64,000 bases of DNA from Rhodococcus jostii RHA1 (GTDB lineage Bacteria; Actinomycetota; Actinomycetes; Mycobacteriales; Mycobacteriaceae), in NCBI RefSeq assembly GCF_000014565.1, contig NC_008268.1, forward strand, positions 6,142,501-6,206,500. Reading direction: 5' to 3'. The notes beneath the pieces were generated by a model. That model searched no databases, was not told the origin of the DNA, and saw nothing but the letters and a program-made list of their open reading frames with translations. Positions 17,065 to 63,016 of the stretch are shown here, in pieces. Numbering within the stretch: the stretch's first letter is position 1; each line of letters starts with the position of its first letter. The position numbers were made by a program, and so were the translations under genes.

Positions 17065-17066
17065 GC

Positions 17067-21501: not shown

Positions 21502-21525
21502 AATTCGCGTTCCGATACTCGATGG

Positions 21526-26105: not shown

Positions 26106-26347
26106 GTCGCGCCGGCTGTCGTTGCTATTGCGCTGTCACGCCGGTCCATTCGGTACCGGATTACTAAACTCTACATTGCTGTGCACGGACGCGCGATGTC
26201 GTTGCCGGACTTTCGCAATGCTCGTTCGGCCCGATGTCTCGAGCCGCTCCGCGTGATAGAATCGAAGGCAGTCCTGTCACCAGGAAGCATTGGTGCACAA
26301 CGAGATCATGATTGTCGCTCGCGTCGAGGGTTTGGTGGAGAATAGCG

Positions 26348-27196: not shown

Positions 27197-27279
27197 GTCG
27201 CCCTGGGTGCCGTAGCCATGGGTGCCGTACTGTGTGCCCACTTTCCGGCGGAATTTCGCCATTGCACATCTGTCGCTGG

Positions 27280-29963: not shown

Positions 29964-30025
29964 GTCGGAACCTCGGTGCGATGGAATCGGTGACCGACCC
30001 GGCCCTTGTGCGCAAGAATTGCAGC

Positions 30026-30580: not shown

Positions 30581-30599
30581 TGGTTTCTGGGAGTTCGCG

Positions 30600-31640: not shown

Positions 31641-31641
31641 G

Positions 31642-38674: not shown

Positions 38675-38688
38675 GGACAGGAGGGCCC

Positions 38689-40751: not shown

Positions 40752-41189
40752 ATGTCTGGTGGTTCTGTCTTGTCGATCCCCGAATCCCGTATCGGGTGCG
40801 ACGTGATGACGGTCGGGCACGTGCGAAGCAGCGTCGAGCGGTTCGGCGACCGCTACCTGACGAGAATCTTCACACCCCACGAACTGGAAACCTGCGAAGG
40901 ACCTGCGCGGGCCCAACGGCTGGCCGCCCGGTTCGCGGCCAAGGAGGCCGTGGTCAAGGTGTTGCGACCCGGGGACGTCGCCTTGCCGTGGCAGTCCATC
41001 GAGATCCGGCGCGAGAGCTGGGGCGGATGCGGAGTGCGCCTGTCCGGCAACGCATCGGACCTCGCCGAGCGGCAGGGGCTCGGTGGATTCGACGTTTCGA
41101 TCTCGCACGAGGCCGACGTCGCGATCGCGATGGTCACCGCGTCCCGGCTCGGCACCCCACCCCATCACCAAGGAGAACGCCACCCATGA
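40752..41189 (+). CDS. Holo-ACP synthase-like 4'-phosphopantetheinyl transferase (AcpS type)
   Basis: 145 residues. It has the two AcpS signatures: IGCDVMTVGHVRSSVERFG near residues 14–32 (normally GTDI…R) with the metal-binding Asp, and ARFAAKEAVVKVL near residues 59–71. It would transfer the phosphopantetheine arm of CoA to a carrier-protein serine, very probably the carrier protein encoded next, whose ATG overlaps its stop (ATGA). Fatty-acid-synthase AcpS is normally encoded elsewhere in actinobacteria, so this appears dedicated to the operon. The C-terminal tail is basic and His-rich. Confidence 0.88.
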   Translation: MSGGSVLSIPESRIGCDVMTVGHVRSSVERFGDRYLTRIFTPHELETCEGPARAQRLAARFAAKEAVVKVLRPGDVALPWQSIEIRRESWGGCGVRLSGNASDLAERQGLGGFDVSISHEADVAIAMVTASRLGTPPHHQGERHP

Positions 41190-41428
41190 GCGAGCAGACC
41201 ATCCGCAAGGTTCTCGGCGACCACGCCCGGCTGTCCGTCGATGCCGCGAGCATCGCCGTCGGCGCCGATCTCTACGAACTGGGTTTGACGTCGCACGCGA
41301 GCGTCAACGTCATGCTGGCGCTGGAGGATTCGTTCGACGTCGAGTTCCCCGACGAGCTGCTGCGCAAGAGCACGTTCGCGAGTGTGGATTCCATTCGGGG
41401 CGCACTCGTCGAACTCGGAGTGGCATGA
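41186..41428 (+). CDS. Acyl (aminoacyl) carrier protein
   Basis: 80 residues, the normal size of a free-standing carrier protein. The phosphopantetheine site is DLYELGLTSHASVNVML with Ser36 in GLTS; the usual form is D-S-L, and the T-S-H-A variant is what I recall from carrier proteins that partner amino acid:[carrier protein] ligases. Overlaps join it to the phosphopantetheinyl transferase upstream and the flavoprotein downstream. The likely cargo is a single amino acid attached by the ligase at 42630–43580. Confidence 0.9.
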   Translation: MSEQTIRKVLGDHARLSVDAASIAVGADLYELGLTSHASVNVMLALEDSFDVEFPDELLRKSTFASVDSIRGALVELGVA

Positions 41429-42633
41429 GCATCGCCCTGGGGAGCGACACCGGGATCGAGTCCGCGCAGTCGTGGGGACCGGCGGCGCGAGCCGAGAGGG
41501 TCGTGGCCGAGGTGGCTGCGCGCTGGGCCGTCGACGTCGATCGGGACGCGCGTTTTCCGCAGGAAGCGATCGACGCGCTCCGGGACCAGCGGTTGCTCTC
41601 GTGTGCCGTTCCCCCGGAACTGGGTGGCGAAGGCGCGACGCTTCGCGAACTGTGCACGATCGCCCGGACCCTCGGGCGCCACTGCGCCGCGACGGCGATG
41701 GTGTTCGCGATGCACCAGACCCAGATCCTCTCGCTCGTACGACATCCGGGTGGCGACGGCGTTTCCGGCGTCCTGCGTGACGTGGTCGCCGGGCAGTTCC
41801 TGCTGGCATCGGCCACGACGGAACTGGGCATCGGGGGCGACGTCCGGCGCAGCACGTGCGCGGTGGAGCAGTCCGGCGGGGTGGTGACGCTGGTCAAGAA
41901 TGCCCCCGTGATCTCCTACGGCGAGTACGCCGACGCGATCCTCGCGACCGCGCGGCGCACCCCCGACAGCCCGCCGAGCGACCAGGTGCTCGTCGTCTGC
42001 CGGCGTGCCGACGTGACGCTCGAGCGCACCGGTGACTGGAACACGCTGGGACTGCGCGGAACCTGCAGTCCCGGATTCGTGCTGCGTGCCACCACGACAC
42101 CCGATCTCGTCGTCGCCGATCCCTATGCGGAGATCTCGGCGGCGACGATGCTCCCGGTGTCGCACTCGGTGTGGTCGGCCGTGTGGCTCGGCATCGCCGA
42201 CGCGGCGGTGGAGAAGGCGCGGCGGTGCGTGCGAGCGGCCGCGCGTAAGCAGCCGGGCGTGGCCTCGCCCGCGGCATCGCGTCTCGCCGAGGCGGCCGCT
42301 GTGCACCAGCAGTTCTCGGACATCGTGTTCGCGGCGGCCCGCCGGTTCGACGACGCCGATGCGGCGCCCCCCGGTTCGCCGGAGGCCGAAATCGCGGGTG
42401 GAGTGGGCTATTCGCTGGCGATGAACAACCTGAAGGTGACGGCGTCGACGCTGGTTGTCGACCTGGTCGGCAGAGCCCTGCTGATCTGCGGGATCGCCGG
42501 CTACCGGGAAGACACGGAGTACTCGCTCGGCCGGCACCTGCGCGATGCGCACGGAGCGGCCGTCATGGTCAACAACGATCGAATCATGGCTAACTCGGCG
42601 CAGATGGCCACGGCATACCGGGGGACGATATGA
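41425..42633 (+). CDS. Acyl-CoA dehydrogenase-like flavoprotein
   Basis: 402 residues with the acyl-CoA dehydrogenase fold order: a helical N-domain (RDQRLLSCAVPPELGGEGATLRELC), the middle strand domain (LASATTELGIGGDVRRSTCAVE; the usual A-x-TE-x-xxG element is kept) and a C-terminal helical domain. The middle domain is the FAD-binding part. The operon suggests it oxidises a carrier-bound amino acid or acyl group rather than acyl-CoA, as seen with flavoproteins in peptide-antibiotic pathways; that is inference. The catalytic base could not be identified. Its ATG overlaps the carrier-protein stop. Confidence 0.85.
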   Translation: MSIALGSDTGIESAQSWGPAARAERVVAEVAARWAVDVDRDARFPQEAIDALRDQRLLSCAVPPELGGEGATLRELCTIARTLGRHCAATAMVFAMHQTQILSLVRHPGGDGVSGVLRDVVAGQFLLASATTELGIGGDVRRSTCAVEQSGGVVTLVKNAPVISYGEYADAILATARRTPDSPPSDQVLVVCRRADVTLERTGDWNTLGLRGTCSPGFVLRATTTPDLVVADPYAEISAATMLPVSHSVWSAVWLGIADAAVEKARRCVRAAARKQPGVASPAASRLAEAAAVHQQFSDIVFAAARRFDDADAAPPGSPEAEIAGGVGYSLAMNNLKVTASTLVVDLVGRALLICGIAGYREDTEYSLGRHLRDAHGAAVMVNNDRIMANSAQMATAYRGTI

Positions 42634-43580
42634 GTACGGATACAGCAGTGGAACGGGAAGAGACGAGCGAACTCGAGCGGGCCCGGCGTGCCTTCCGGGC
42701 GGAACTGCTGGACGCCGGACTCCTGGTGGACACGTCCGTCGCCGGCCTATACGGACGGTCGGGGTTGTTCGAGGACATCGTCGACGGCATCGACGCGGTC
42801 GTGCGAGCAGCAGGGCCGGGCGCGTCCGCTGCCCGATTCCGGTTTCCTCCGGTGTTCCCGCGCACCAGTTTCGAGCGCACCGACTACATCGCGTCGTTCC
42901 CCAACCTGACCGGGGCGATCAACACGTTCACCGGCACCAACGCCGAGCACGCCCAACTGCTGGCGGCGCGAGCCGACGGTGAGAGCTGGGACAAGTGGCT
43001 CGAACCGACCGATACGGTGCTGGTGTCGGCGGCGTGCCACCCCGCGTACCCGATGTTCACGGGTGTGTTGCCGGACGGCGGTGCGCTGCTCGACGTGTAC
43101 GGCTACTGCTTCCGGCACGAGCCGGCGTTCGATCCCGCCCGCATGCAGGCGTTCCGGATGCACGAGTTCGTGCAGATCGGCACGGCGGACCAGGCCGCGA
43201 CCCACCGTGATTCGTGGATCGAGCGCGGGCTCGAGGTGCTGTCCGACCTGTGGCTGGACGCCACGCCGGTGGTCGCCAATGACCCGTTCTTCGGCAGGGT
43301 CGGACGCATGCTCGCCGCCAACCAGCGCGAGGAGAACCTCAAGACCGAGCTCACGGTGCGCCTGTACGGCGATCTCGACGAGGGGACCGCCGTCGTCTCG
43401 TGCAACTGCCATCAGGACCACTTCGGTGTCACGTTCGACATCGCCACCGCGGACGGCGGCGTCGCCCACAGTGCGTGCGTGGGATTCGGGATGGAACGCA
43501 TCGCGCTCGCGATGCTGCGGACCCACGGCATGGACCCGTCGCGCTGGCCGAGTGCGGTGAAATCCCGGATGTCGCTGTGA
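42630..43580 (+). CDS. Amino acid:[carrier protein] ligase, truncated seryl-tRNA-synthetase-like
   Basis: 316 residues of class II aminoacyl-tRNA synthetase catalytic core without the tRNA-binding arm. Motif 2 is FRHE (161–164), motif 3 is GFGMERIAL (286–294). The three zinc ligands of atypical SerRS are present as C136 (SAACHP), E179 (MHEF) and C283 (SACVGF). Proteins with this exact layout in Bradyrhizobium and Agrobacterium activate glycine or alanine and load it on a small carrier protein instead of tRNA (Mocibob and colleagues). The carrier protein lies two genes upstream. Overlapping ATGA/TGATG junctions bind it to its neighbours. Amino acid specificity is not predicted. Confidence 0.9.
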   Translation: MSTDTAVEREETSELERARRAFRAELLDAGLLVDTSVAGLYGRSGLFEDIVDGIDAVVRAAGPGASAARFRFPPVFPRTSFERTDYIASFPNLTGAINTFTGTNAEHAQLLAARADGESWDKWLEPTDTVLVSAACHPAYPMFTGVLPDGGALLDVYGYCFRHEPAFDPARMQAFRMHEFVQIGTADQAATHRDSWIERGLEVLSDLWLDATPVVANDPFFGRVGRMLAANQREENLKTELTVRLYGDLDEGTAVVSCNCHQDHFGVTFDIATADGGVAHSACVGFGMERIALAMLRTHGMDPSRWPSAVKSRMSL

Positions 43581-44542
43581 TGTCCCGGCTGATCGACATC
43601 TCGCCGGACGGATACGAGCCGCACTCCATCCACTCCGACGAGCGGACGTGGACCGAGACCAACTGCTACCTCGACCTGTGGGTGGAGGTGCTCCACTCGC
43701 TCGGGCTCGATCCGGTGCCCGCCGCCGCGTGCGCGTTCGGCGCCCGGTTCGACGGATCACAGTGGACGTTCCTGAAGTTCAAGCCGGAGGATCTGTTCGC
43801 GCTGTACGGGATCGACGTGGGGGAGATGAACGTCTGGCGCCGGGTCCTCGACCACGTCGAGGACAACCTCGCTGCGGGAATGCTGTCGACCGTCGAGGTG
43901 GATGCGCACTGGCTCCCGGACACGGTGGGCACCGGGTACCGCGAGAGTCACACCAAGACGACGATCGTCGCGAACTACATCGACCGGGAGGCCGGTGCGC
44001 TCGAGTATTTCCACAACAGCGGGTATCACCGGTTGGCCGGTGACGACTTTCGCGGGTTGTTCGGGCTCGACGTCGCCGGGTCGGTGACCTTCACCCCCTA
44101 CGTGGAGCAGGTCCGGTTCGACGGGGACCCGGGGTACCGTCCGGCGCGCTTCGAGGCGGTGCTGCGTCATCATCTCGCCACCCGGCCGGACGGGAATCCG
44201 GTGCGCGAACTCGGCGAACGAGTGGTCGCCGACGTGCCCTGGATCCGCGACGCCGGCATCGACACGTTCCACCTGTGGACGTTCGGGGTGTTGCGGCAGT
44301 GCGGTGCCACCGCGGAACTGGCCGCCGACGTCTGCGAGTACCTCGAGCGCAACGGGTTCGCGGGGGCAGCGGCGTTCGCGCCGGGCTTCCGGGCGGTGGC
44401 GCAGGGCGCGAAGAGCGTGCAGTTCCAGATGGCGCGGGCCGCTCGCGGACGCAGTGTCGACCCGTCGGCGCAACTCGACGGCATGGCCGAGGCGTGGGAA
44501 CGGTCGGTGGGTGGCGTGGCGCGAATGGTCGGACGCGCGTAA
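43580..44542 (+). CDS. DUF1839 family protein, possible cysteine-dependent aminoacyl transferase
   Basis: 320 residues from the ATG at 43580, overlapping the ligase stop (TGATG). It matches DUF1839 over its length. The N-terminal TETNCYLDLWVEVLHSLG places a conserved-looking Cys at 29, and a later ESHTKTTIVANYIDREAGALEYFH places His at 124 and Asp at 136. That spacing recalls papain-like/C39-type folds and the BtrH acyltransferase, which takes an acyl group from a carrier protein. I infer that it may move the amino acid from the carrier protein to an acceptor. The family has no established function. The stop overlaps the next ATG (TAATG). Confidence 0.72.
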   Translation: MSRLIDISPDGYEPHSIHSDERTWTETNCYLDLWVEVLHSLGLDPVPAAACAFGARFDGSQWTFLKFKPEDLFALYGIDVGEMNVWRRVLDHVEDNLAAGMLSTVEVDAHWLPDTVGTGYRESHTKTTIVANYIDREAGALEYFHNSGYHRLAGDDFRGLFGLDVAGSVTFTPYVEQVRFDGDPGYRPARFEAVLRHHLATRPDGNPVRELGERVVADVPWIRDAGIDTFHLWTFGVLRQCGATAELAADVCEYLERNGFAGAAAFAPGFRAVAQGAKSVQFQMARAARGRSVDPSAQLDGMAEAWERSVGGVARMVGRA

Positions 44543-46947
44543 TGGATCTTCTCGCCGGCGCGCGGTGGCGTTGCGTGGCAACGGAACCGGGCTCGGTCAC
44601 CGATCCGTCGGGCCTGGCTTGTGTGCCGGGTCCGTGGTATCCCGCGCAGGTGCCGGGTACCGCGGCAGGCGCGATCCGGGCGACCCACGGCGTTGCGGCG
44701 GCGCGGGCGACGAAGACCGATGCGGTGGACTGGTGGTTCGTCACCGACGTGTCCGGCGGCGGCCCGGGGCCGTGGCGGCTCGAGTTCGACGGCCTCGCCT
44801 CGCACGCGCAGGTGTGGGCCGGCGAGGACCTCGTCCTGTCTTCGGAGTCGATGTTCGTGCCTGCCTCGGTCGAACTCGCCTCCCGCCCCGGCACGGTCAC
44901 GCTGGCGATCCGGTTTCCGTCGCTCGATGCCGCGCTCCGCCGCCGGCGGCCACGCGGACGCTGGCGGTCGTCGCTGGTGAGCGCGCAGGGCCTGCGCTGG
45001 GTTCGCACGAGCCTGCTCGGCCGCGCCCCGGTCTTCGGTGGTGTGCCGGCCCCGGTGGGTCCGTGGCGGGCGGTGCGACTGCGCGACCGCGCCGCGCCTG
45101 TCCTGTCGGACCGTCACGTGGTCACCGCCGTCGAGGACTGCACGGGCGTGCTGGACCTCGCCGTGCGTGTGCATCGTTCGGCCGGAGCTGCCCCCGTCGT
45201 GCGGCTCGGCGACCTCACCGTGGACGCGGAAATCGTGGACTTTGGGCGGGGCGCGCAGGAGATCCGCGCCCACGTGCGCGTCCCCGACGTCCGGTTGTGG
45301 TGGCCCCACACCCACGGCGCCCCCGCGACGTATCCGCTGAGCATCGTCCTGGGGGAGCACGTCGTCGACCTGGGTGCGGTCGGATTCCGCACGGTGCGCG
45401 CGGCGTGCGGCGACGGCGGATTCCGGCTGTCGGTCAACGGCGTCGACGTGTACTGCCGCGGCGCCGTCTGGACGCCCGTGGATCCGGTGGGGCTGGGCGG
45501 CCGGGATCAGGCTCGGGCCACCCTCGAGCGGGTGGTCGAGGCCGGCCTGAACATGGTCCGCGTGCCGGGCACGACGGTGTACGAGGACGCCGCGTTCTGG
45601 GACGACTGTGCCGAACTCGGTGTCATGGTGTGGCAGGACGTCATGCTGTCGACGTTCGACCCGCCCGACGACCAGCCGTTCCTGGACCTGCTGACCGCCG
45701 AGGTCGAGTCGGTGCTGCGGCCGCTGTCCGGGAACCCCGCGCTCACCATGTTCAGTGGAGGCAGCGAGACCGAACAGCAACCGGCGATGCTCGGACTTCC
45801 GTGGTCGCACATGACGGCGGTGCACGACGTGATTCCGGCGGTGGTCGGTCGGACGGCGCCGGGGTTGGTGCGGGTGTCGTCGTCACCGACCTCGCCGCCG
45901 GGCGACGACGCGCTCGCGACCCATGTGGGGACGGGTATCGCGCACTACTTCGGGGTCGGGGGATATCGGCTTCCGCTGTCCGACGTCCGCCAGGCCCGGG
46001 TGCGGTTCGCCGCCGAATGCCTCGCGTTCTCGATCCCCCCGTCGGACGCGGCGATCGAGGCCGAATTCGGCAGCCTCGCGGTCGCGGGCCACCACCCACG
46101 GTGGAAGGCGGCCGTGCCGCGGGACAACGGGGCCCCCTGGGACTTCGAGGACGTCCGCGATCACTACGTGCGGACGCTGTTCGGCGAGGAGCCGTCGACG
46201 GTCCGGTGGAGCGACCCCCAGCGGTACCTCGCCCTCGGCCGGGCCGCCGTCTGCGAGGCGTTCGCGGCGACACTGGGATACTGGCGGCGGCCCGATTCGG
46301 GATGCGACGGCGCGCTGGTGCTCGCGCTCCGCGACCTCGAACCCGGCGCCGGGTGGGGGCTGCTCGACTCCGACGGCAGGCCGAAGGCGCCGTGGTTCGT
46401 GATGCGGCGGATGTCGCTGCCGGTCGCAGTCCTCCTCGCCGAGGACGGATTGGACGGCCTGCGGATCGACGCGGTCAACGACTCCGACCACGAGGTCGTG
46501 GGGGAGTTGCGGGTGCAGGTGCACACCCGCACGGGTGCCCGGGCGTTCGACGTCACCGAACCGGTGACCGTCGCCGCGCACGCGGCCCGCCGGTGGTCGC
46601 TCGACACGGTGCTCGGGCGTTTCACCGACGCGACCCACGTCTACCGCTTCGGTCCCCGCGGCTACGAGAGCGTGACCGTCCTTCTGTCGAGTGAGGACGG
46701 TGTCGTCGCCGAGTCCGTTCACCTCGTCGGCGGACCGGCGCGCGCCCTCGAACGGACCGTCGGCCTGACGGCGGTGGCGCGGCAGACGGCGTCCGGCGAC
46801 TGGGTCGTCGACGTCGGTACCGACGGCGCTGCGCAGTACGTCCACCTCGAACTCCGCGGCTTCGAACCGGAGGACTCCTGGTTCCATCTGCCGCCGGGCG
46901 GAGCACGGACGTGCCGGTGCGCAGGACCGGGACAGCGGACGCGGTGA
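44542..46947 (+). CDS. GH2-family glycoside hydrolase, beta-mannosidase-like, probable C-terminal frameshift
   Basis: 801 residues with no signal peptide, so cytoplasmic. Domain order is the GH2 one: N-terminal jelly-roll, Ig-like domain, TIM barrel ([19 protein letters not shown] near 294–312; [15 protein letters not shown]) and C-terminal beta domains. The acid/base Glu is E409 in FSGGSE; the second Glu is E492 in [10 protein letters not shown]. Usual motifs are GNNE or GGNE and SEFG, so both sites are divergent but keep Glu. It closes the carrier-protein operon with a TAATG overlap. The reading frame ends in a Cys/Arg-rich tail, and the natural C-terminus seems to continue in another frame. 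Confidence 0.82.
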
Positions 46948-51936: not shown

Positions 51937-52782
51937 ATGAGCCTCTACACGCCTGATCGCCTGGAACCCTCCGACGGTACCGACGTCGTGGGCGTCGACC
52001 AACGCAAAGGCGAAGATAACGGTCGCAACGACGGGGACGGGTCGCAGCGGCCGACGGTCACGGTCGTCGTGCCTGCCATGAACGAAGCCAAGAACCTCCC
52101 GCACGTTGCCGCGCGGATGCCGGCCGACATCGACGAGATCGTCTTCGTCGACGGACATTCCGTCGACGACACGGTCGAGGTGGCCAGGAGTCTCTGGCCC
52201 GACGCCACGGTCGTGACACAAAGCCGAAAAGGCAAGGGCAATGCCTTGGCCTGCGGTTTCCTCGCCTCCACGTCGGACATCATCGTCATGATCGACGCCG
52301 ACGGATCCACGGACCCGGCCGAGATCCCGCTGTTCGTCGGGGCACTCGTGGCAGGCGCGGACTTCGCGAAGGGAACGCGCTTCGCCGCCGGCGGCGGAAG
52401 CTCGGACATCACGTTCAGCAGGAAGCTCGGAAACAAGGCGTTGAACGCAATCGTCAACCTCAAGTTCGGGGCGTCGTTCAGCGATTTGTGCTACGGCTAC
52501 AACGCATTCTGGCGTCACCACGTCCCGGTGATGGCGCTGCCATCGGTCGACGCGACAGAGGCGCAGTGGGGCGACGGCTTCGAGATCGAGACGCTCATCA
52601 ACGTGCGAGTCGCCAACGCGGGTCTGAAGATCACCGAGGTCCCGAGTTTCGAACAGGACCGCATCCACGGCGAGAGCAATCTCAACGCGGTACGTGACGG
52701 GCTCCGGGTGCTGCGCACCATCAGGAGCGAACAGCGCACCCCCGCAGCGGACGTGTCCCCGGCCCCCGTCTCGCGAGGCTGA
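51937..52782 (+). CDS. GT2-type glycosyltransferase (dolichyl-phosphate-mannose synthase-like)
   Basis: 281 residues. After a polar N-terminal 40 residues comes the GT-A core: VTVVVPAMNEAKNLPHVAARM, IVFVDGHSVDDTVEVA, the DXD site IVMIDADGSTDPAEI, and KGTRFAAGGGSSDITFSRKLGN. This is the polyprenyl-phosphate-sugar synthase or initiating-GT2 subtype. It has no membrane helix. As first gene of the second polysaccharide operon, it may make a lipid-linked sugar donor or start the chain on a lipid. The ATG follows a GAGGAAAGACGGAC stretch. Confidence 0.88.
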   Translation: MSLYTPDRLEPSDGTDVVGVDQRKGEDNGRNDGDGSQRPTVTVVVPAMNEAKNLPHVAARMPADIDEIVFVDGHSVDDTVEVARSLWPDATVVTQSRKGKGNALACGFLASTSDIIVMIDADGSTDPAEIPLFVGALVAGADFAKGTRFAAGGGSSDITFSRKLGNKALNAIVNLKFGASFSDLCYGYNAFWRHHVPVMALPSVDATEAQWGDGFEIETLINVRVANAGLKITEVPSFEQDRIHGESNLNAVRDGLRVLRTIRSEQRTPAADVSPAPVSRG

Positions 52783-52788
52783 GCAACC

Positions 52789-53739
52789 ATGACGGTGTCC
52801 ACCCTCGTGTCCTGCTCCGTCGTGATCTGCGCCTACACCACCGAACGGTGGACCGACCTGTGCGCCGCAGTCGACTCGGTGCTCACCCAGAACGTGCCCG
52901 TGCTCGAGGTGCTGGTGGTGATCGACCACTCCGAGGAACTGTTCTCGCGTGCCGAACGGCACTTCGCCGGGCAGACCCGGGTGACCGTGCTGCGTAACTC
53001 CGGGTCGAAGGGGCTCTCCGGAGCCCGCAACACGGGCGTGCGCGCGGCCCGCGGTGACGTGATCGCGTTCCTCGACGACGATGCGCGCGCCGAACCCGAC
53101 TGGTATCGCGTGTCCGCCGCCCACTATTCCGACCCCGACGTGCTCGGCGTGGGGGGATTCGCCAGTCCCGTGTGGCCCGCGGACCGCCCCGTGTGGATGC
53201 CCGCCGAGTTCGACTGGGTGGTCGGCTGCAGCTACGTCGGCCAGCCGACACGTATCGAGCCGGTGCGGAACTTCATCGGCTGCAACATGTCTCTGCGGCG
53301 CACGGTGTTCGACGCCGTCGACGGGTTCAGCGACGGGATCGGCCGGGTCGGGAAGACACCGGTCGGGTGCGAGGAGACCGAACTCTGCATCCGGATCCGC
53401 GCCCACCAGCCCTGTGCGCAGCTGCTGTTCGACCCCGCGATGAGGGTGGCGCACCGCGTCTGCGACGACCGCACCACGTTCCGCTACTTCCTCTCGCGCT
53501 GCTTCCACGAGGGCGTGTCGAAAGCCCTGGTCGCCGATCTCGTCGGGGCCGGCGACGCGCTCAGCAGCGAGCGGGCGTACACCGCACGCGTTCTCCCGCG
53601 AGCTGTCGTCACGGGGATCGCATCCCCGCGGCACGGCGGGCTGGCCCGGGCCGGTGCCGTGGTCGCGGGGCTCACGGCGACCACTGCCGGCTACGTCCGC
53701 GGTCTCGTCGGTCTGCGATCGAAGCGGGTGACGGCATGA
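52789..53739 (+). CDS. GT2-type glycosyltransferase
   Basis: 316 residues. The GT-A core begins SVVICAYTTERWTDLCAAVDSVL, with VIDHSEELFSRA as the first acidic site, GLSGARNTGVRAARGDVIAFLDDDARAEPDW as the DXD region and an ETELCIRIRAH acceptor motif (ED/ET-x-L type). A weak hydrophobic stretch is near the C-terminus. The stop overlaps the next ATG (ATGA at 53736–53739). Sugar specificity unknown. Confidence 0.88.
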   Translation: MTVSTLVSCSVVICAYTTERWTDLCAAVDSVLTQNVPVLEVLVVIDHSEELFSRAERHFAGQTRVTVLRNSGSKGLSGARNTGVRAARGDVIAFLDDDARAEPDWYRVSAAHYSDPDVLGVGGFASPVWPADRPVWMPAEFDWVVGCSYVGQPTRIEPVRNFIGCNMSLRRTVFDAVDGFSDGIGRVGKTPVGCEETELCIRIRAHQPCAQLLFDPAMRVAHRVCDDRTTFRYFLSRCFHEGVSKALVADLVGAGDALSSERAYTARVLPRAVVTGIASPRHGGLARAGAVVAGLTATTAGYVRGLVGLRSKRVTA

Positions 53740-55046
53740 CCGGAACACTCGATCGCCGGATCGACCTCGTGCCTGCTCTCGTGAGCGATCACGCGCCGAC
53801 GTGGGACGGGGCCGTCTGGGTCGGCGAACTACGCGGACCCGTGCAAGACGACACCGAATACCGGCTGGAGCGCGCCGAGGGGTATCGGCGTGCCCGGCTG
53901 CTCGTGCGAGAAGACCGCACCCTGCTGGGATTCGTCGAGATGGACATCGAGGACGGCCGACTCGAGGCCGGTGCACTGCAGCGTGCACTGGACGGGCTGC
54001 TGCCGGAAGCGGTGGCCGAAAGCATCGCCACCACCGACGCATCCGGCCCCTCCGTCACCGTGGTGGTCTGCACCCGGGATCGGGTCGACAGCCTGAAGGT
54101 CGCCCTCGAATCGATCCTGTCGCTCGACCATTCCGACTACGAGGTGATCGTGGTCGACAACGCATCCCGCACCGATGCCACGCGGCGGTACGTCGCCGAA
54201 CTCGGTGACCCCCGTGTGCGCGTCGTGACCGAGCCCCGCCCGGGCCTGTCCCGGGCGCGCAATGCGGGCGTTCGCGCGGCGAACACGGAGATCGTCGCGT
54301 TCACCGACGACGACGTCGTCGTCGACCCGCACTGGCTCACCGAACTCGTCGCCGGCTTCGGCGCCGGGAAGGCAGTGGGGTGCGTGTGCGGAATCGTCCC
54401 GAGCGGGGAGATCCGCACACCCGCGCAGGCGTACTTCGATCAGCGGGTGGGATGGGCGAGTTCCTGTGTCCCACGGTTGTTCGACCTCGCGCACCCACCC
54501 GCCGACGTGCCGCTCTTCCCGTTCCAGGTAGGCGTCTACGGGACCGGTGCGAATTTCGCGGTCGATCGGCAGGCCGTGTTCGCGCTGGGGGGTTTCGACG
54601 AGGCGCTCGGGGCGGGAGCCCCCACCGACGGTGGCGAAGACCTCGACATGTTCTTCCGTGTGCTGCACTCCGGGCGGCAGCTGGCGTACCGGCCCGGGGC
54701 GGTCGTGTGGCATCGGCACCGGGCGGACAACGAGGCGCTCGCCGTCCAGGCGCGCGGCTACGGCCTCGGGCTCGGCGCGTGGCTGGCGAAGATCGCCGTC
54801 GACCCCCGCACCGCCTGGCTCGCAGTGCGCATCGCCGTGCGGCAGGCGCCGGCGTTTCTTCGTCTGTCGCGGAAGATGTCCCGCGTCGCCACCCCTCCGG
54901 ACGGTCTCGCCGACGACCTTCCCGTGGGGATCGGGGCCACCGAACTGCGGTCCATCGCGCGTGGCCCGCTCGCCTATCTGAAGGCCCGCGTGGAGGGCCG
55001 GGATCCGGCGCCGATGAGAGGGATGACCCATGAGCGCCCATCCTGA
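53736..55046 (+). CDS. GT2-type glycosyltransferase with extra N-terminal domain
   Basis: 436 residues. Residues about 1–105 are an additional domain without a clear match (TEYRLERAEGYRRARLLVRED and on). The GT-A core follows: VTVVVCTRDRVDSLKVALESIL, VVDNASRTDATRR, ARNAGVRAANTEIVAFTDDDVVVDPHWL and GGEDLDMFFRVLHSGRQLAYRP (the ED-containing acceptor motif). The same N-extended layout is seen in mycobacterial-type GT2 proteins in polysaccharide loci. It overlaps the next gene by 17 bases, so expression is coupled. Confidence 0.86.
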   Translation: MTGTLDRRIDLVPALVSDHAPTWDGAVWVGELRGPVQDDTEYRLERAEGYRRARLLVREDRTLLGFVEMDIEDGRLEAGALQRALDGLLPEAVAESIATTDASGPSVTVVVCTRDRVDSLKVALESILSLDHSDYEVIVVDNASRTDATRRYVAELGDPRVRVVTEPRPGLSRARNAGVRAANTEIVAFTDDDVVVDPHWLTELVAGFGAGKAVGCVCGIVPSGEIRTPAQAYFDQRVGWASSCVPRLFDLAHPPADVPLFPFQVGVYGTGANFAVDRQAVFALGGFDEALGAGAPTDGGEDLDMFFRVLHSGRQLAYRPGAVVWHRHRADNEALAVQARGYGLGLGAWLAKIAVDPRTAWLAVRIAVRQAPAFLRLSRKMSRVATPPDGLADDLPVGIGATELRSIARGPLAYLKARVEGRDPAPMRGMTHERPS

Positions 55047-56805
55047 TCTCGCCGGCCGCACCGACCGCACCCGGTTCGCCACCTGGTTCGGACCGGCGGA
55101 CGCGCCGCTGTTCGGCGTCGTCGACCTTCCTGTCGACGGCCGCTGCCGCGGTGCCGTCGTCCTGTGCCCGCCGATCGGCAAGGAACAGGTCGACTCGTAT
55201 CGCGGAATGGTGTACCTCGCCCAGCAATTGCGGGCTCGGGGGCTTCTGGTGTTGCGGTTCGACTACCGCGGCACCGGTGACTCGCCGGGCGCCCAGGACG
55301 AGTCCGACGCGGTCGCGGGGTGGCTCGACAGCATCCGGACGGCCGTCGACTTCGTGCGCAGCTGCGGCATCACCGACATCGGGCTGGTCGGCCTCCGGGT
55401 CGGCGCCCTGCTCGCCGCGCAGGTCGCCGTGACGTGCGGTCCGGTGCGGGCGGTGACCCTGTGGGATCCGGTGGTGCGCGGCCGCGCCTACCTGCGCAAG
55501 CAGACTGCGCTCCACCAGCTGGTGGTCGGTCCCGAGGACGCGGACGATCCGCGGGTCACCCTCATCGGTGCGGTGCTCGCACCGGCCGCGGCTACGGCCC
55601 TGTCGGCGATGAGTCTGCGAGCCGCCACTCCGCCGCCGGGCGCGAAGGTTCTGATGGCGTTGCGGGACAGCGAGGTCGATTCCGTCGGGATGCGTGAGGC
55701 CGTCGCGGCCTGGAACGCCGAGCACTTCACGGTTCACGACTACGAATCGTTTCTCGAGCCGGCGGACTTCGTGGTCCGGCTCCCGTTCGGCGACATCGAC
55801 CGGATCGCCGACTGGATGTCCGCGTCCTTCGGCAACCACCACACCGGTGCCACACTCGATCTCCGCGCCACCGCCGTCGTGGATCGGACCGTCGACGGCA
55901 GGCAGGTCATCGAGACTCTGGGCTTCGAGGGAGCGTCCGAACTCTTCACGATCCGCACGTCCGTCGCGACCGAGCGGGACGCGGCGCACACCCCTGCGGC
56001 GCCGACGGTGATCTTCCACGGCACCGCCGGCGAGCACCGCGTCGGGCCCGTCCGGCTGTGGGCCGAGACTGCCCGCGAACTCGCGGCCCACGGGATCGTC
56101 AGCGTTCGCTTCGATCGCCGCGGCACCGGTGACACCGGCACGGTGCAGCACGGCGAATCCACCACCATCTATACGGACGAATCCCGGGACGACGCCGTCG
56201 ACATCATCTCCGTCAGCGGTGCGCAGCCCGAATCGGCTGTGCTCGTGGGCATGTGTTCGGGGGCGTGGAACTCGAGTTACGCCGCCCTCCGGCGTCCGGT
56301 CCGGGCGGTGGTCCTGGTCAACATGGCGGACTGGACCATTACCCGTAAAGCCTTCGTGAAGCAGTCGACGATGGACGCCGGCCAGGGTTCCCTGACGGGT
56401 GCCGCGCTCGCGCTACTCCACCGGTACGCGGCGACGTCGAAAAAGTACCTGCGGGTGTGGATGCCGTACCGCGGCTGGTTGTGGCTGGGCCGGGCCGGGT
56501 TGCTGCAGGTGCCGGAGGTCATGCTCGCTCCGCTGAACGACCGTGGCGTGCACACCACCGTCCTCCTCTCACCGATCGACTACGCCGCATTCGTCGAGAA
56601 CCAGGGAGAACGCAGCCTTCGCCGGCTCCGGCGCGCCGGCTGGAACGGACGCCTGGTGACGTACCCGTCCGGCGATCACTCGCTGTACAGCACCGCCCTG
56701 CGGGACAGGGTCCTGCGGGACGTCCTCGCCACCGCGCTCGGTGAATTGACCGTGGACAGCGTCGACGACGCCCGTGACGATTCCCGGCCGGAATTGGTCG
56801 GGTAA
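55030..56805 (+). CDS. Tandem alpha/beta-hydrolase protein with non-serine nucleophile elbows
   Basis: 591 residues made of two alpha/beta-hydrolase domains. Each has an oxyanion/strand segment typical of the family: VLCPPIGKEQVDSYRGM with RFDYRGTGDSPG in domain 1, and VIFHGTAGEHRVGPV with RFDRRGTGDTG in domain 2. The nucleophile elbow normally reads GxSxG. Here it is GLRVG (121–125) in domain 1 and GMCSG (407–411, C409) in domain 2. Domain 1 is probably non-catalytic, and domain 2 could be a cysteine hydrolase or acyltransferase. In this operon it may act on acyl groups of the polysaccharide or on a carrier. The start has AGAGGG upstream. Confidence 0.83.
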   Translation: MSAHPDLAGRTDRTRFATWFGPADAPLFGVVDLPVDGRCRGAVVLCPPIGKEQVDSYRGMVYLAQQLRARGLLVLRFDYRGTGDSPGAQDESDAVAGWLDSIRTAVDFVRSCGITDIGLVGLRVGALLAAQVAVTCGPVRAVTLWDPVVRGRAYLRKQTALHQLVVGPEDADDPRVTLIGAVLAPAAATALSAMSLRAATPPPGAKVLMALRDSEVDSVGMREAVAAWNAEHFTVHDYESFLEPADFVVRLPFGDIDRIADWMSASFGNHHTGATLDLRATAVVDRTVDGRQVIETLGFEGASELFTIRTSVATERDAAHTPAAPTVIFHGTAGEHRVGPVRLWAETARELAAHGIVSVRFDRRGTGDTGTVQHGESTTIYTDESRDDAVDIISVSGAQPESAVLVGMCSGAWNSSYAALRRPVRAVVLVNMADWTITRKAFVKQSTMDAGQGSLTGAALALLHRYAATSKKYLRVWMPYRGWLWLGRAGLLQVPEVMLAPLNDRGVHTTVLLSPIDYAAFVENQGERSLRRLRRAGWNGRLVTYPSGDHSLYSTALRDRVLRDVLATALGELTVDSVDDARDDSRPELVG

Positions 56806-56807
56806 TC

Positions 56808-58181
56808 ATGGGATCCCCGACAGCGACGCAGTCGCACCTACGCGCGAAGCACCGTGCCGAGCAGGCACCGCGATCCGCGGGGCGGAATCTGCAGCTCAAC
56901 TCGATGGCACTGATGCTGTCGAGTGTCGTCACCGGTGTACTCGGCCTCACCTTCTGGGGTGCGGCCGCGCGATTGTTCCCCGCCGATCAGGTGGGCGTGG
57001 CGTCCGCACTCATCTCGACGGCGATCATGCTGTCGACGCTGTCGAATCTCAGCCTGGGCTCGATGTTCGAGCGCTTCCTCCCCGTGGCGGGCCACCGCGC
57101 GGGACCGTTGCTGGTCAAGGGTTTCGCCGCGGTGGCCACGCTGGCCTTCGTGTCGGCCGTCGGGCTCATCGTCCTCGGTCCGCGGGACACGCTGTTCGAG
57201 AACAACCTGGAAATCGCGATCTATCCGGTGTTCGTCGTCGTGCTCGCGCTCTTCGCCCTGCAGGACCAGACCGTCTCCGGGCTGGGCGTGGCCCGCTGGG
57301 CGGCGTCGAAGAACGTCTTCCACGCGCTGGCCAAACTCCTCGCGGTCGTGGTGCTCGCGGCGTCGGGGTCGGCGCTCGCCATCGTCGCGTCCTGGGGGGT
57401 CACCGCGGCGATCGCCGTTGCGGTCGTGTTGACGTCGATGGGCCTGCGCATTCGGTCCGACCCTCGGTACCGGCAGGTACCCGCGCTGCCGTCCAACAAG
57501 GAACTCGGTGTGTACTTCGGCTCCTCGTACGGCATTTCGGCGCTGGGGGCCATCGCCCCGCTCGTCGTCCCGCTGATCGTCGTCACCCGGGTCGGCACCG
57601 CGGCGAACGCCTACTTCGCAGTGACGTGGTCGATCGTCAGCGCCCTCTACATCATGGTGAACCTCATGGTGGGTCCGTTCGTCGCCGAGGCCGCCGCGCA
57701 TCCGGACAAGATCGTCAGCCTGTCCCGCCGGTTCGTTCGCACCATTGCCGCGGTCGCGGTGGTAGGCGGATTCGGGCTGGCCTTCGTCGCGCCGGCGGCG
57801 CTCGGATTCATCGGCGACGAATACCGGGCGCAAGGAACTCCTCTGCTCCATCTCGCCGCGGTATTCGTGCCTCTCACGGTCATCGGCGCCGTCTACGACG
57901 GTCTCGCGCGGGTGTACCGCCGGCTGACCCTCGCCGTCGTCACCCAGTGCCTGGCCACGGTGGTCATCATCGTCGGCAGCCTGGTCTTCAGCGCGTCGGT
58001 CGGCGTCGCGGGGGTGGGCTGGGCGTATCTCGCCGCGGAGACGCTCACCGCCGTGATCCTCGCCGGACCGCTCATCTCCTGGCTCCGCCGACTCCAGAAC
58101 CGCTCCAAGTGGGAGCGGTGGCTGGCGAAGAAGAGCGTGAACCAGCAACCGATGTGGCAGGTGTCCGATGTCGACGCATAG
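56808..58181 (+). CDS. MOP-superfamily polysaccharide flippase (Wzx/MurJ-like)
   Basis: 457 residues with about fourteen hydrophobic segments. The first helices read LMLSSVVTGVLGLTFWGAAARLFPADQVGVASALIS, the pattern of polysaccharide flippases. It would export lipid-linked glycan of the second locus and is distinct from the flippase at 22527. The last stretch (WERWLAKKSVNQQ) is cytoplasmic. It overlaps the next gene by 14 bases. Confidence 0.86.
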   Translation: MGSPTATQSHLRAKHRAEQAPRSAGRNLQLNSMALMLSSVVTGVLGLTFWGAAARLFPADQVGVASALISTAIMLSTLSNLSLGSMFERFLPVAGHRAGPLLVKGFAAVATLAFVSAVGLIVLGPRDTLFENNLEIAIYPVFVVVLALFALQDQTVSGLGVARWAASKNVFHALAKLLAVVVLAASGSALAIVASWGVTAAIAVAVVLTSMGLRIRSDPRYRQVPALPSNKELGVYFGSSYGISALGAIAPLVVPLIVVTRVGTAANAYFAVTWSIVSALYIMVNLMVGPFVAEAAAHPDKIVSLSRRFVRTIAAVAVVGGFGLAFVAPAALGFIGDEYRAQGTPLLHLAAVFVPLTVIGAVYDGLARVYRRLTLAVVTQCLATVVIIVGSLVFSASVGVAGVGWAYLAAETLTAVILAGPLISWLRRLQNRSKWERWLAKKSVNQQPMWQVSDVDA

Positions 58182-59414: not shown

Positions 59415-60086
59415 ATGCCCTCACACGTCCTCGAGACCTCGAAGCGCGCTCCGCTGTACCTCACCGTTGCCGTACTGCAGTTCTTCGTCGTCGAATTCCT
59501 CGTCGCCGGCACGTGGCGCGGTCACTACAGCTACTCCGCCAACTTCGTCAGCGACCTCGGCGTCCCGTTCTGCGGCACGGACGGAAACGCGCCGTGCAGC
59601 AAGACATCCCTGCTGATGGACGCGTCGTTCGTGGTGACCGGACTGGCCTACCTGGTGGCCGCCGTCCTGTGGCACCGCATCGAACGGGTGCTGCCGCCGG
59701 CCCCCGTCGTCTTCCTGGTGGTGGCCGGGATCGGCGGAGTAGTGGTCGGTCTCGCGCCGTCGAACACGCATTGGGAAGTGCATTCGCTCGGCGCCACGCT
59801 CTTCCTGATCTTCGGCAGTCTCTTCACGCTCACGACGGCACTCACCGTCCGGCCTCAGATATCCGGACCGGCAACGTACGTCGCCCTCGCACTGGGGGTG
59901 CTCGGACTGGTGGGGTACTTCTGCTTCACCTACTCCTGGGACCTCGGTCTCGGCGTGGGTGGTATCGAACGGGTTGCGGCCTACTCGGCGATCCTCGGGT
60001 TCGTCGTGTGCGTCCACCTCGTGACACAGCTGCAGTCGGTCCGACGTTCGGCTGTCGGCCCGGTCGGAGACGGTGCCGGTGCATAG
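59415..60086 (+). CDS. DUF998 integral membrane protein
   Basis: 223 residues with about six hydrophobic helices and the DUF998 features: FVSDLGVPFCG after the first helix, VGLAPSNTHWEVHSLGATLFLIFGSLF, and a final VCVHLVTQL. It begins two bases after the acyltransferase stop and overlaps the GH16 start. DUF998 proteins have no settled function. Their presence in actinobacterial envelope loci suggests a membrane partner or transport accessory. Confidence 0.8.
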   Translation: MPSHVLETSKRAPLYLTVAVLQFFVVEFLVAGTWRGHYSYSANFVSDLGVPFCGTDGNAPCSKTSLLMDASFVVTGLAYLVAAVLWHRIERVLPPAPVVFLVVAGIGGVVVGLAPSNTHWEVHSLGATLFLIFGSLFTLTTALTVRPQISGPATYVALALGVLGLVGYFCFTYSWDLGLGVGGIERVAAYSAILGFVVCVHLVTQLQSVRRSAVGPVGDGAGA

Positions 60087-60915
60087 GCAGCTGAACCGTC
60101 CACGCAGGACCCGCGCCGTGTCCGCGGCGACGGTGTTCCTCGCGCTCGTCTGCATCGGCGCCACCGGGTGGTACGCGTCGAGCGATGTCGCCCAGGCATC
60201 GAGGAAGGGCGAGTCGGTGCTCATGTTCGACGATTTCGTCGGGCCCGCCGGAACCTCGCCCGACCCCCGCTACTGGGGACACGCGGTCGGGGGAGGCGGC
60301 TGGGGTAACGACGAGGCGCAGGTGTACACGGACGATCCCGCCAATTCCAGGCTCGACGGCGAGGGCAACCTCGTGATCGAAGCCCGTCCCGACGGATCGG
60401 GGTACACGTCCGCCCGGCTTGTCACCCTCGACCGCTTCGCATTCCAGTACGGACGGGCCGAGGCCCGCATCAAGCTGCCGAGCGGACAGGGCCTGCACCC
60501 GGCGTTCTGGTTGATGGGCACGGACGTCAACCGTGTGGGCTGGCCGCAGTCGGGGGAGATCGACGTGATCGAGACGATCAACGACGCGTCGTTCTATCAC
60601 AGTGCGCTGCACGGCCCGTCCGCGGACGGCACCCCGTGGGAGGTGAAAGCCGAAGGCAGCGGAAACATGTCGGACGATTTCCACGACTATTGGGTGGAGC
60701 GGTCGCCGGACCGGATCACGTTCGGCATCGACGACGCGGTGACGGGCGAGTTCTCGCGTGCCGACCTGGACCCGGGGCAGGAGTGGGTGTTCGACAAACC
60801 GTTCTCCCTGTTGCTGAATGTCGCCGTCGGTGGACGGTGGCCGGGCGACGTCGGAGCCGACACGACGTTTCCCGCGGCGATGCTCGTCGACTGGGTGAGG
60901 GTCACCGATGAGTGA
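60073..60915 (+). CDS. Glycoside hydrolase family 16, membrane-anchored or secreted
   Basis: 280 residues. The N-terminus has RRTR then a hydrophobic segment (AATVFLALVCIGATGWYA, about 18–35), a signal peptide or anchor. The catalytic motif is EIDVIE at 162–167, with nucleophile E162 and acid/base E167, in a beta-jelly-roll. GH16 enzymes cut beta-1,3/1,4-glucans or galactans, or transglycosylate. Start is GTG at 60073 or 60079. Within a polysaccharide operon it probably trims, releases or remodels the polymer outside the cell. A paralogue lies at 63072. Confidence 0.9.
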   Translation: MPVHRQLNRPRRTRAVSAATVFLALVCIGATGWYASSDVAQASRKGESVLMFDDFVGPAGTSPDPRYWGHAVGGGGWGNDEAQVYTDDPANSRLDGEGNLVIEARPDGSGYTSARLVTLDRFAFQYGRAEARIKLPSGQGLHPAFWLMGTDVNRVGWPQSGEIDVIETINDASFYHSALHGPSADGTPWEVKAEGSGNMSDDFHDYWVERSPDRITFGIDDAVTGEFSRADLDPGQEWVFDKPFSLLLNVAVGGRWPGDVGADTTFPAAMLVDWVRVTDE

Positions 60916-63016
60916 TCTCCTCACTGTGGAGCGCCTCGACACGAGGGCTCCGGAGCTGCCCCGGTACTACGACGTCGCCGCGCTGGCCTCGGCGGTCGCG
61001 GGACTGACGTCCCTGGCGCCGCTTCCGTCGTCGGTGAGTGCGGTGCTGCTGACGGTGTTCGTGTTGATCGGACCGGGGCTCGCGATCGTGACGTGGTTGC
61101 GGATACCGCTTGTCGCAGCCGTCGCGGCCGTCCCCGTTCTCGGGTTGTCCGTGGTGACTGCGGCCACGACCGTCCTGGCCTGGTTCTACCGATGGCCCGC
61201 GACGGGTCTGCTGCTGGTGATGGTCCTGGCCGTCGTTGCGTCCGCGCTGCGGCACCGCTGGCAGGACACCGGCGCCGAGCCGGTTCGCGCGGTGACCGTG
61301 CAGCAGATGTCGTTCCGTCTGTCGCAATGGTGGCACGCCGCCCGCCGGAACCGGCCGCTGATCCTCGTTGCCGTGGCCCTTGCCGCGTGGGTGGTGGTGC
61401 TCTTCGGTCTCGGCTCCACCGCGTATTCACAGTTCGGTCTGCTGTTCGTCGGAAGCGGTCCCGGCCTCGTGGTGTGCGCCCTGATGATCCTCGGCGCGTT
61501 CGTCTGGGCTCTTCGCGAGAGGGCTGTCGGGACCGCTGCCGTTGCCGTGCTCGGCGTGATCGCGGTGGAACGGCTCACCCCGACCCTCGTCACCGACGTT
61601 CCCATCTACGGGTGGACGTACAAGCACCTCGGCGTGGTCGACTACATCCAGCAGTTCCAGACTCTGCCGCCGAAGGGCGTCGACATCTACGGCGAGTGGC
61701 CGGGCTTCTTCACCGCATTCGCGTGGTTCGGCGACATCACGTCCGTGGACATGATGTCGATCGCCCACTGGTTCGCGCCGGTGATCCACGTACTGCTGGC
61801 CGTCGTGATCGCCGTGATCGCCCGGCTCCTCGGGTTCGGCATGCGGGTGGCACTGACGGCCGCGTTGGTGGCGGAACTCGCCAACTGGGTGGGGCAGGAC
61901 TACTTCTCGCCGCAGGCCGTCGCCCTCGTCATGGCACTGGGTGCGGTGGCCCTGCTCGTGGTGTCGACGGAGCACCGCTCCGCGGCGTACCTGTCGATCC
62001 TCGTGTTCGCAGCCCTGGTGCCCACCCATCAGCTGACCCCGTACTGGCTGTTCGGCGTGACGGTTGCATTGGCGGTGACGCGGAAGATCCGCCCGTGGTG
62101 GCTCCCCGTTCCCTACTTCGCGATCCTCGTCGCCTATCTCGTTCCCCGGCTGGACATCGTTGCACCGTACGGGCTGCTGTCCGGTTTCAACCCGGTCGAC
62201 AACGCCGCCAGCAACGTGACCGCCGTCGGCACGTTCGGGAAGATCTTCACCTCCGCCGTGTGCCGATCCCTGTCCGCGGGCATCGTCCTGCTCGCCGTGG
62301 TCTGCGCGATCCTCCTTTGGCGTCGCAAGCGTTCCGCCTGGGTCGGGACCGTCATGGCGTTCAGTTCGTTCGCGCTGCTGGCCGGTCAGAGCTACGGCGG
62401 TGAGGCGATCTTCCGGGTCTATCTCTACGCCGTGCCCGGGTGCGCGATTCTCATCGCGCCGATCCTCGTGGACGCTCTCACGATCAGGTTCCGGTCCGGA
62501 GTGCTTCGCCGAGTCGTCCCGGTCGGACTCGCGAGCGGACTGGCCTACGTGACGTTCGCGGGCCTGCAAGGCTATTTCGGGTTGTGGTCGCTCGTCATCG
62601 GATATCAGTCCCAGGTGACGTTCGCGGAGGACATCCTCGCGAACGAGAAGCCGCCGGCGACGGTCATGTCCCTCTATCCCGCCGGTCTTCCCACTCGGAT
62701 CAGCGCCGACTACATCAAGTTCGCCGTCGTCGACAAGGATTTCGATCAACCCTTGCTGGCCTTGCCCCCGGCCGTGCTGGAGGGCTTCCCCCGCGGCGGC
62801 CAGATCGAGATGCTCACCGCGGATGCGGCGGAACGCGACGGCGACACGTATCTCGTGTTCAACACGCAGGGCACTGCCGCCATCCGCTACTACGGTTATC
62901 TACCCGACGGATCCGTCGAGAACTTCGAGGACCAGATGCGGTCCAGCCCCGACTGGTCCGTGTACGCGCAGGACGACAACAGCACGATCTTCCGTTACAC
63001 GGGGCCGCGCCGGTAA
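60908..63016 (+). CDS. Large multi-spanning membrane protein, polymerase or GT-C-like
   Basis: 702 residues with about fourteen hydrophobic segments from residue 20 to about 560, then a roughly 140-residue C-terminal extracytoplasmic domain (LYPAGLPTRISADYIKF and following). Between helices, a DVPIYGWTYKHLGVVDYIQQ loop resembles GT-C acidic loops. The topology suits a polysaccharide polymerase (Wzy) or a polyprenyl-phosphate-dependent glycosyltransferase. I cannot choose between them. It overlaps the GH16 gene by eight bases and is followed by another GH16 gene, so the three likely make and process one glycan outside the membrane. Confidence 0.75.
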   Translation: MSDLLTVERLDTRAPELPRYYDVAALASAVAGLTSLAPLPSSVSAVLLTVFVLIGPGLAIVTWLRIPLVAAVAAVPVLGLSVVTAATTVLAWFYRWPATGLLLVMVLAVVASALRHRWQDTGAEPVRAVTVQQMSFRLSQWWHAARRNRPLILVAVALAAWVVVLFGLGSTAYSQFGLLFVGSGPGLVVCALMILGAFVWALRERAVGTAAVAVLGVIAVERLTPTLVTDVPIYGWTYKHLGVVDYIQQFQTLPPKGVDIYGEWPGFFTAFAWFGDITSVDMMSIAHWFAPVIHVLLAVVIAVIARLLGFGMRVALTAALVAELANWVGQDYFSPQAVALVMALGAVALLVVSTEHRSAAYLSILVFAALVPTHQLTPYWLFGVTVALAVTRKIRPWWLPVPYFAILVAYLVPRLDIVAPYGLLSGFNPVDNAASNVTAVGTFGKIFTSAVCRSLSAGIVLLAVVCAILLWRRKRSAWVGTVMAFSSFALLAGQSYGGEAIFRVYLYAVPGCAILIAPILVDALTIRFRSGVLRRVVPVGLASGLAYVTFAGLQGYFGLWSLVIGYQSQVTFAEDILANEKPPATVMSLYPAGLPTRISADYIKFAVVDKDFDQPLLALPPAVLEGFPRGGQIEMLTADAAERDGDTYLVFNTQGTAAIRYYGYLPDGSVENFEDQMRSSPDWSVYAQDDNSTIFRYTGPRR

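Follow-up and report, generated by a model that had tools for sequence, protein, structure and literature searches.

The window analysed here is a 64,000-nucleotide stretch of the Rhodococcus jostii RHA1 genome (NC_008268.1, positions 6,142,501 to 6,206,500 of the forward strand), which comprises 9,702,737 bases in four contigs, one of them 7,804,765 bases long. Its plus strand carries, at positions 40752–46947, six overlapping genes (Table 1). They encode, in this order, an AcpS-type phosphopantetheinyl transferase (PPTase), a carrier protein, a flavoprotein with acyl-CoA dehydrogenase fold, an amino acid:[carrier protein] ligase resembling seryl-tRNA synthetase (SerRS), a DUF1839 protein and a GH2 glycosidase. 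The coordinates and the junctions, three of the type ATGA, one TGATG and one TAATG, confirm an initial annotation according to which the six genes are joined by overlaps without gaps. The operon probably represents a carrier-protein route by which a surface glycan receives an amino acid on one of its sugars.

The loading part of the operon belongs to a known family. With 461.5 bits against a curated cut-off of 357, the ligase is a member of family PRK07080/NF005479, and the family profile matches the Bll0957 structures of Bradyrhizobium with E-values of 1e-105 to 2e-109 (2.4e-109 for 4h2w). Arg162, Glu164, Arg290, Cys136 and Cys283 are conserved in 35 of 35 sequences and Glu179 in 32, the other three having Asp. 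We take these positions to be residues of motifs 2 and 3 and the zinc ligands, and the earlier statement that the ligase keeps both motifs and three zinc ligands thus holds at residues conserved in 32 to 35 of 35 sequences. The carrier protein reaches 106.7 bits with model NF005480 (cut-off 72), and its phosphopantetheine serine is kept in 89 of 89 sequences. Known ligases of this type had been noted to load glycine or alanine. The same amino acids, together with serine, are listed for such ligases in a 2022 review of synthetase paralogues, the available text of which gives neither pathway nor product (PMC9437257).

The central protein of the operon is DUF1839. Its predicted model (predicted local distance difference test, pLDDT, 94.4) displays a full-length papain-type fold, and the top structural matches are CcbD, CtaG and an AziU2/U3 chain, with all others far below. 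At E≤0.001 the structural neighbours are biosynthetic enzymes and include no protease, and a sequence search of the PDB gave no credible relatives. Cys29, His145 and Thr/Ser127 are found in 46 of 46 members and His124 in 44; Asp108 is invariant and is paired by a weak profile alignment with an aspartate of the BtrH family. This pattern suggests a permuted catalytic triad, Cys29-Thr/Ser127-His145, with His124 as a remaining candidate. The permuted order Cys-Thr/Ser-His is also given for DUF1839 in a 2023 survey, which placed the family in the papain-like fold (PMC10318531).

The flavoprotein fold is matched by PF02771 in 37 of 37 sequences and by PF00441 in 34. In all 37, no catalytic glutamate can be observed at the position of Glu376 in MCAD or Glu254 in IVD, both positions being placed by the alignments of the PDB profile search and by motif spacing; residue 382 is Val (26) or Ile (11) and residue 246 Ser (24) or Ala (13). 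Lacking both usual glutamates, the protein is disfavoured as an ordinary α,β-desaturating dehydrogenase, and a glycyl group cannot undergo α,β-desaturation. In the profile search of the PDB, dehydrogenases score up to 96.4 bits and the oxygenases of the same fold, DnmZ and DszC, 77.8 and 68.5 bits. PF08028 is found in 16 of the 37 flavoproteins, and the scores do not clearly place them nearer to DszC and the nitrososynthases than to the dehydrogenases. Oxygenation or amine oxidation may, with low confidence, be likelier than desaturation; monooxygenation had also been guessed for the redox enzyme in 2010 (PMC2922099).

Profile and predicted model identify the GH2 enzyme as β-mannosidase-like, with the fold and domain order of a GH2 β-mannosidase. 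Glu409 is found in 38 of 41 relatives (two Gln, one Asp) and Glu492 in 39 (one Gln, one Gly); from their motif positions these are presumably the acid/base and the nucleophile. No hydrophobic segment was seen in the protein, which apparently is cytoplasmic.

That DUF1839 and GH2 belong to the same functional unit as the loading genes, as initially proposed, is borne out by two genome samples. Among 396 genomes of the actinobacterial phylum, the ligase model finds matches in 10, four of them over the cut-off. DUF1839 is present in three, the RHA1 genome included, and in all three (3/3) carrier protein, flavoprotein, ligase, DUF1839 and GH2 are found at one locus, collinear in two genomes (G000, G139) and as two convergent halves in the third (G278). 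Neither DUF1839 nor GH2 occurs at any of eight ligase loci from six of the seven other ligase-positive genomes, the seventh (G393) having a marginal ligase match only. The second sample comprises 398 genomes of Pseudomonadota and is centred on G418, itself a genome with DUF1839. Here DUF1839 is found in 16 genomes, the central one included, in 18 copies, and the five genes share one locus in 16 of 16; the two surplus copies belong to genomes of this kind. The ligase is detected in 44 of the 398 genomes at E≤0.001 and over the cut-off in 28, among them all 16 with DUF1839. At the 12 remaining loci (15–20 kb covered at each) the flavoprotein is present in 12 of 12, and no match to DUF1839, GH2 or the tandem hydrolase described below was obtained. 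Since ligase-only loci have neither, GH2 and DUF1839 travel together and not merely with the ligase. The initial annotation had allowed that the genes might rarely co-occur and the last two be incidental; the opposite was found, and with these samples and their controls chance neighbourhood of DUF1839 and GH2 is ruled out. The 12 ligase–flavoprotein loci without DUF1839 (L229–L240), of which seven have GGDEF-EAL-like matches nearby, represent another, distinct way of employing the loading module.

When a collection of species genomes was scanned with an alignment of three DUF1839 sequences, 216 relatives were confirmed, of which the best 80 were kept. They occur in Rhodococcus and its relatives, Acidimicrobiia, Luteimicrobium, Flexivirga, Rhizobium, Pannonibacter, Rhizobacter and others, as well as in metagenome-assembled genomes labelled Myxococcales, Abditibacteriaceae and Acidobacteria. 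Within the flanking DNA, 59 of the 80 loci have all five genes and 79 have GH2 (exception L068), in 76 of them at most 300 bases from DUF1839; many of these loci come from related species, so that the counts are not independent events. The case for a dedicated PPTase is weaker than initially claimed: the PPTase is an optional part, found at 34 of the 80 loci and at none of the 16 Pseudomonadota loci. DUF1839 and GH2 stand alone at 17 loci, and all 17 genomes possess elsewhere an over-cut-off ligase with adjoining carrier protein and flavoprotein; altogether, such a ligase was found elsewhere in 23 of 23 genomes searched. Missing parts aside, five arrangements can be distinguished: collinear; DUF1839-GH2 facing ligase-flavoprotein-carrier on the opposite strand; ligase-flavoprotein divergent from carrier-DUF1839-GH2-PPTase (L073, L089, L094); and two orders unique to L096 and to L101. 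Gene-order strings from L080, L092 and L162 are artefacts and were not counted, which leaves the presence counts unaffected. At L026, a second set of ligase, carrier protein and PPTase (5150–6721) lies at a distance of about 7 kb from the set of five genes, with mfd between them. Additional DUF1839 copies were seen in genomes that already have a full module (L158, 13277–14194; L157, 133–1041). At L163 (10503–12960, in the genome of L106) the GH2 match is split into three pieces in separate frames, possibly a decaying or misread copy.

Genes for polysaccharides are found around the module. In the window, mfd and mazG follow the operon; next come the genes for three glycosyltransferases of family GT2, a tandem hydrolase, a pair of large membrane proteins and two enzymes of the GH16 type (Table 1). 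The third GT2 reaches 145.6 bits with TIGR03965, under the cut-off of 280, and its ATG at 53736 overlaps the preceding gene. The tandem hydrolase matches TIGR03101 (E 6e-25) and TIGR03100 (E 4e-20), both under cut-off. The membrane protein next to it, examined as a Wzx flippase, gave no Pfam match at E 0.01. A homologue of the other membrane protein is found near DUF1839-GH2 in many Rhodococcoides-type loci. Upstream, mostly on the minus strand, lies a polysaccharide cluster of the Wzx/Wzz type with lower G+C at third positions (16447–34342), which encodes Wzz, a PF01943 flippase, a PF02397 sugar-1-phosphate transferase, RmlC, an epimerase, a PIG-L de-N-acetylase and a C-methyltransferase. The stretch directly upstream of the operon (36545–40533) encodes an Rv1355c-family ThiF-nitroreductase fusion and then a GAF-GGDEF-EAL protein, a pair conserved at the six most closely related loci of Rhodococcus (L036–L041) and not seen flanking other Rhodococcus copies.

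Table 1. Genes of the operon and of the region downstream of it (positions in the window).
Feature	Position	Strand	Evidence and remarks
AcpS-type PPTase	40752..41189	+	PF01648 E 7e-17; predicted carrier-protein activator
Aminoacyl carrier protein	41186..41428	+	PF00550 E 8e-07; phosphopantetheine Ser36 (GLTSHAS)
Flavoprotein, acyl-CoA dehydrogenase fold	41425..42633	+	PF02771/PF00441; PDB profile search; predicted to modify the aminoacyl group on the carrier
Amino acid:[carrier protein] ligase	42630..43580	+	NF005479; class-II SerRS-like
DUF1839, predicted papain-fold aminoacyl-[carrier protein]:amine acyltransferase (Cys29, Thr127, His145)	43580..44542	+	
GH2 β-mannosidase-like glycosidase	44542..46947	+	catalytic-type Glu409 and Glu492; no visible signal peptide
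GT2 glycosyltransferase	51937..52782	+	PF00535 E 1.1e-20
GT2 glycosyltransferase	52789..53739	+	PF00535 E 3e-23
GT2 glycosyltransferase, MftF/EpsD-like	53736..55046	+	PF00535 E 1.2e-28 on the longer open reading frame from 53172
Tandem α/β-hydrolase	55030..56805	+	PF12146/PF12697; related to exosortase-A-associated hydrolases 2 and 1
Multi-pass membrane protein, possible flippase	56808..58181	+	11 transmembrane-like segments; function inferred from place beside the tandem hydrolase
GH16 glycosidase	60073..60915	+	PF00722 E 4e-19; one N-terminal hydrophobic segment
Multi-pass membrane protein	60908..63016	+	13 transmembrane-like segments
Second GH16-like glycosidase	63072..63911	+	NCBIfam EglC/ExoK/BglS glycanase models, below cut-off

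Relatives of the tandem hydrolase recur near DUF1839 in several phyla and stand directly 3' of GH2 in, for example, L084, L090, L095, L097 and L100. At E≤1e-15 they are found at 35 of the 80 loci, 10 of the 16 Pseudomonadota loci and none of 16 control regions; at 50 bits and as best match of the frame, the numbers are 28, 8 and 0. Ten of ten examined are similar to exosortase-A-associated hydrolases 1 and 2, under cut-off. In Rhizobium, a 1103-residue protein (L099, 14850–18158; L105, 14851–18159) combines a PF13440 flippase with α/β-hydrolase domains in two of two cases tested. With a fixed set of polysaccharide queries, picked after inspection, at 50 bits, any match is obtained at 13 of the 16 Pseudomonadota loci, including two Rhizobium-like loci (L159, L161) that resemble L099, at 0 of 16 control regions and at 0 of the 12 ligase-only loci. 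The corresponding total of 71 of the 80 loci (57 without the tandem hydrolase) is partly circular, because the queries were taken from the window, L081, L099 and L112. A Pfam scan of neighbours covered 118 proteins from 13 of the 16 loci (L161, L163 and L164 left aside because of their size, L169 and L172 each without one terminal fragment) and, as control, 120 proteins from 13 matching control regions, out of a random 152 of 254; the counts are those among the top 25 families, single hits not being counted.

On the basis of the observed gene set, linkage, predicted folds, active-site residues and polysaccharide neighbourhood, aminoacylation of an amino sugar of a surface glycan is the most likely outcome; the amino acid, the acceptor, the product, the role of GH2 and every reaction are what we infer. 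The PPTase, where present, would put the phosphopantetheine arm on the carrier protein, and the ligase would activate a small amino acid with ATP and bind it as a thioester to this arm. The flavoprotein might then modify the aminoacyl group on its tether, with oxygenation or oxidation of the amino-bearing end more probable than ordinary α,β-desaturation. Cys29 of DUF1839 would accept the acyl group and pass it on to an amine, most likely that of an amino sugar, forming an amide in a CcbD-like manner. In the cytoplasm, the GH2 enzyme could trim or release a β-linked sugar resembling a mannoside, carried by the acceptor or by a glycosylated intermediate. The glycosyltransferases, the sugar-1-phosphate transferase, the flippase and the tandem hydrolase encoded nearby would serve glycan assembly and export. 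A bolder version is offered tentatively and is open to considerable doubt: a widespread, unrecognised glycan decoration, in which an oxidised (e.g. N-hydroxy or imino) aminoacyl group, made by ligase, carrier and flavoprotein, would be attached by the permuted papain-fold enzyme to the amino sugar of a lipid-linked repeat unit and exported by a hydrolase-tied flippase; nonribosomal-peptide chemistry would thereby be applied to bacterial polysaccharides.

Several observations weigh against the glycan route. DUF1839 appears to have a permuted triad in place of the Cys-His-Glu of CcbD, and it falls outside Pfam family BtrH_N, with a best E-value of 0.059 in two of 46 members and a weak hhalign comparison (probability 0.7%, E 0.081). 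As an apparently cytoplasmic enzyme, GH2 is without evident substrate, and one catalytic-type glutamate is missing in 3 and the other in 2 of the 41 relatives. Between the operon and the glycan genes downstream of it in the window stand mfd and mazG; three of the 16 Pseudomonadota loci lack any match to a polysaccharide query, and just seven of the 16 have one when the tandem hydrolase is excluded. Moreover, the exopolysaccharide of RHA1 has been reported to consist of galactose, glucose, fucose and glucuronic acid, with no amino sugar (PMC12786566), and for this reason the acceptor would be another or a minor glycan rather than the main exopolysaccharide.

The initial annotation had seen signs of an amino-acid-modified glycan or small molecule. 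From sequence and context the glycan is the best reading, and a soluble amide of the aminoglycoside or lincosamide kind, with the polysaccharide genes as unrelated neighbours, is unlikely. Such a product would fit the three loci without a polysaccharide match, the housekeeping gene mfd as next gene downstream in the window and in close relatives, and the nearest solved relatives of DUF1839, which work in small-molecule pathways (CtaG in that of closthioamide, AziU2/U3 in that of azinomycin). Against it stands the recurrence of polysaccharide genes beside the module across phyla, absent as they are from control regions and ligase-only loci. Furthermore, all ten proteins tested among the 13 members of neighbour gene cluster 15 are PF02397 sugar-1-phosphate transferases; these enzymes flank loci of Rhodococcus, Williamsia, Mycobacterium and Acidimicrobiia, at several of which they are the very next gene.

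Alternatively, the bond formed might be an ester with a sugar hydroxyl, comparable to D-alanylation of teichoic acids, or the acyl group might be transferred to a lipid. Oxygen nucleophiles can react with a thioester acyl-enzyme, and an exopolysaccharide free of amino sugars would accord with this, but the top structural match CcbD forms an amide on an amine, Asp108 is invariant and aligns, weakly, with the BtrH-family aspartate, and the PIG-L de-N-acetylase encoded in the upstream cluster could provide a free amine; we regard ester or lipid transfer as improbable. That DUF1839 is instead a hydrolase or cell-wall glycan-processing enzyme, as suggested from fold and genomic context in PMC10318531, for example a thioesterase freeing the modified amino acid, is very improbable given its biosynthetic structural neighbours, its link to an aminoacyl-carrier-protein module, which argues for transfer, and no transmembrane-like segment being seen in the protein.

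Amide ligation of an amino acid to a surface sugar is not wholly new as an idea. A note added in proof in 2010 predicted that the gene neighbourhood of Atu2574, presumably a DUF1839 protein, ligates an amino acid to a cell-surface sugar amine, and the same source recounts the description of aminoacyl-carrier-protein ligases in that year (PMC2922099). In a literature search with most subscription journals outside its coverage, PMC10318531 was the sole match for 'DUF1839', and no product of the ligases was found, which is weak evidence of absence; the available texts of PMC11941606 and PMC10888616 mention ligase loci in expression data only. The earlier description of the pathway as undescribed therefore stands in part: ligase module and fold are already known and a function had been predicted, and mechanism and pathway frame were not found in print. 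The present analysis adds the CcbD-type fold, the conserved, apparently permuted active site, co-occurrence with controls, the tandem hydrolase and the flippase fusion. The proposed CcbD-type mechanism gives the central protein a concrete, testable job and makes the question of the end product one for a single in vitro experiment. If it is true, the surface glycans of Rhodococcus, Rhizobium, Acidimicrobiia and further bacteria are decorated by carrier-protein chemistry, which would matter for adhesion, symbiosis and novel polymer chemistry, and DUF1839 would be a usable amide-forming biocatalyst.

Among known systems, the neighbourhood of Atu2574 is alike in acyl carrier protein, redox enzyme, SerRS paralogue, uncharacterized protein, glycosidase, 'liposaccharide' genes and predicted chemistry; in its available text, the 2010 note gives no fold, active site or counts (PMC2922099). 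The Bradyrhizobium and Agrobacterium ligases (Bll0957, Atu2573) share family and profile with the RHA1 ligase, and bll0958, the next number to bll0957, is annotated as acyl-CoA dehydrogenase (PMC10888616). However, the DUF1839 module is a distinct, extended type, because the 12 Pseudomonadota ligase loci without DUF1839 have no GH2 or polysaccharide match. Compared with the GH2 β-mannosidases 5n6u and BtMan2A, the operon's GH2 has 19–22% identity, is apparently cytoplasmic and sits in a biosynthetic module. CtaG and AziU2/U3, the sole remaining fold matches at E≤0.001, show 10–18% identity to DUF1839, and neither is known to acylate amino sugars. BtrH of butirosin synthesis, an acyl-ACP:aminoglycoside acyltransferase, follows a like logic in passing a carrier-bound acyl group to an aminoglycoside (PMC10318531), with the weak sequence link to DUF1839 given above. 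The closest likeness in fold is to the lincosamide amide synthases CcbD/LmbD: in celesticetin synthesis, CcbD shifts an amino acid from a carrier protein onto an amino sugar, forming an amide on its amine, whereas DUF1839 shares 16% identity with it, has an apparently permuted triad, would depend on another activating enzyme and is found in the context of a glycan instead of an antibiotic.

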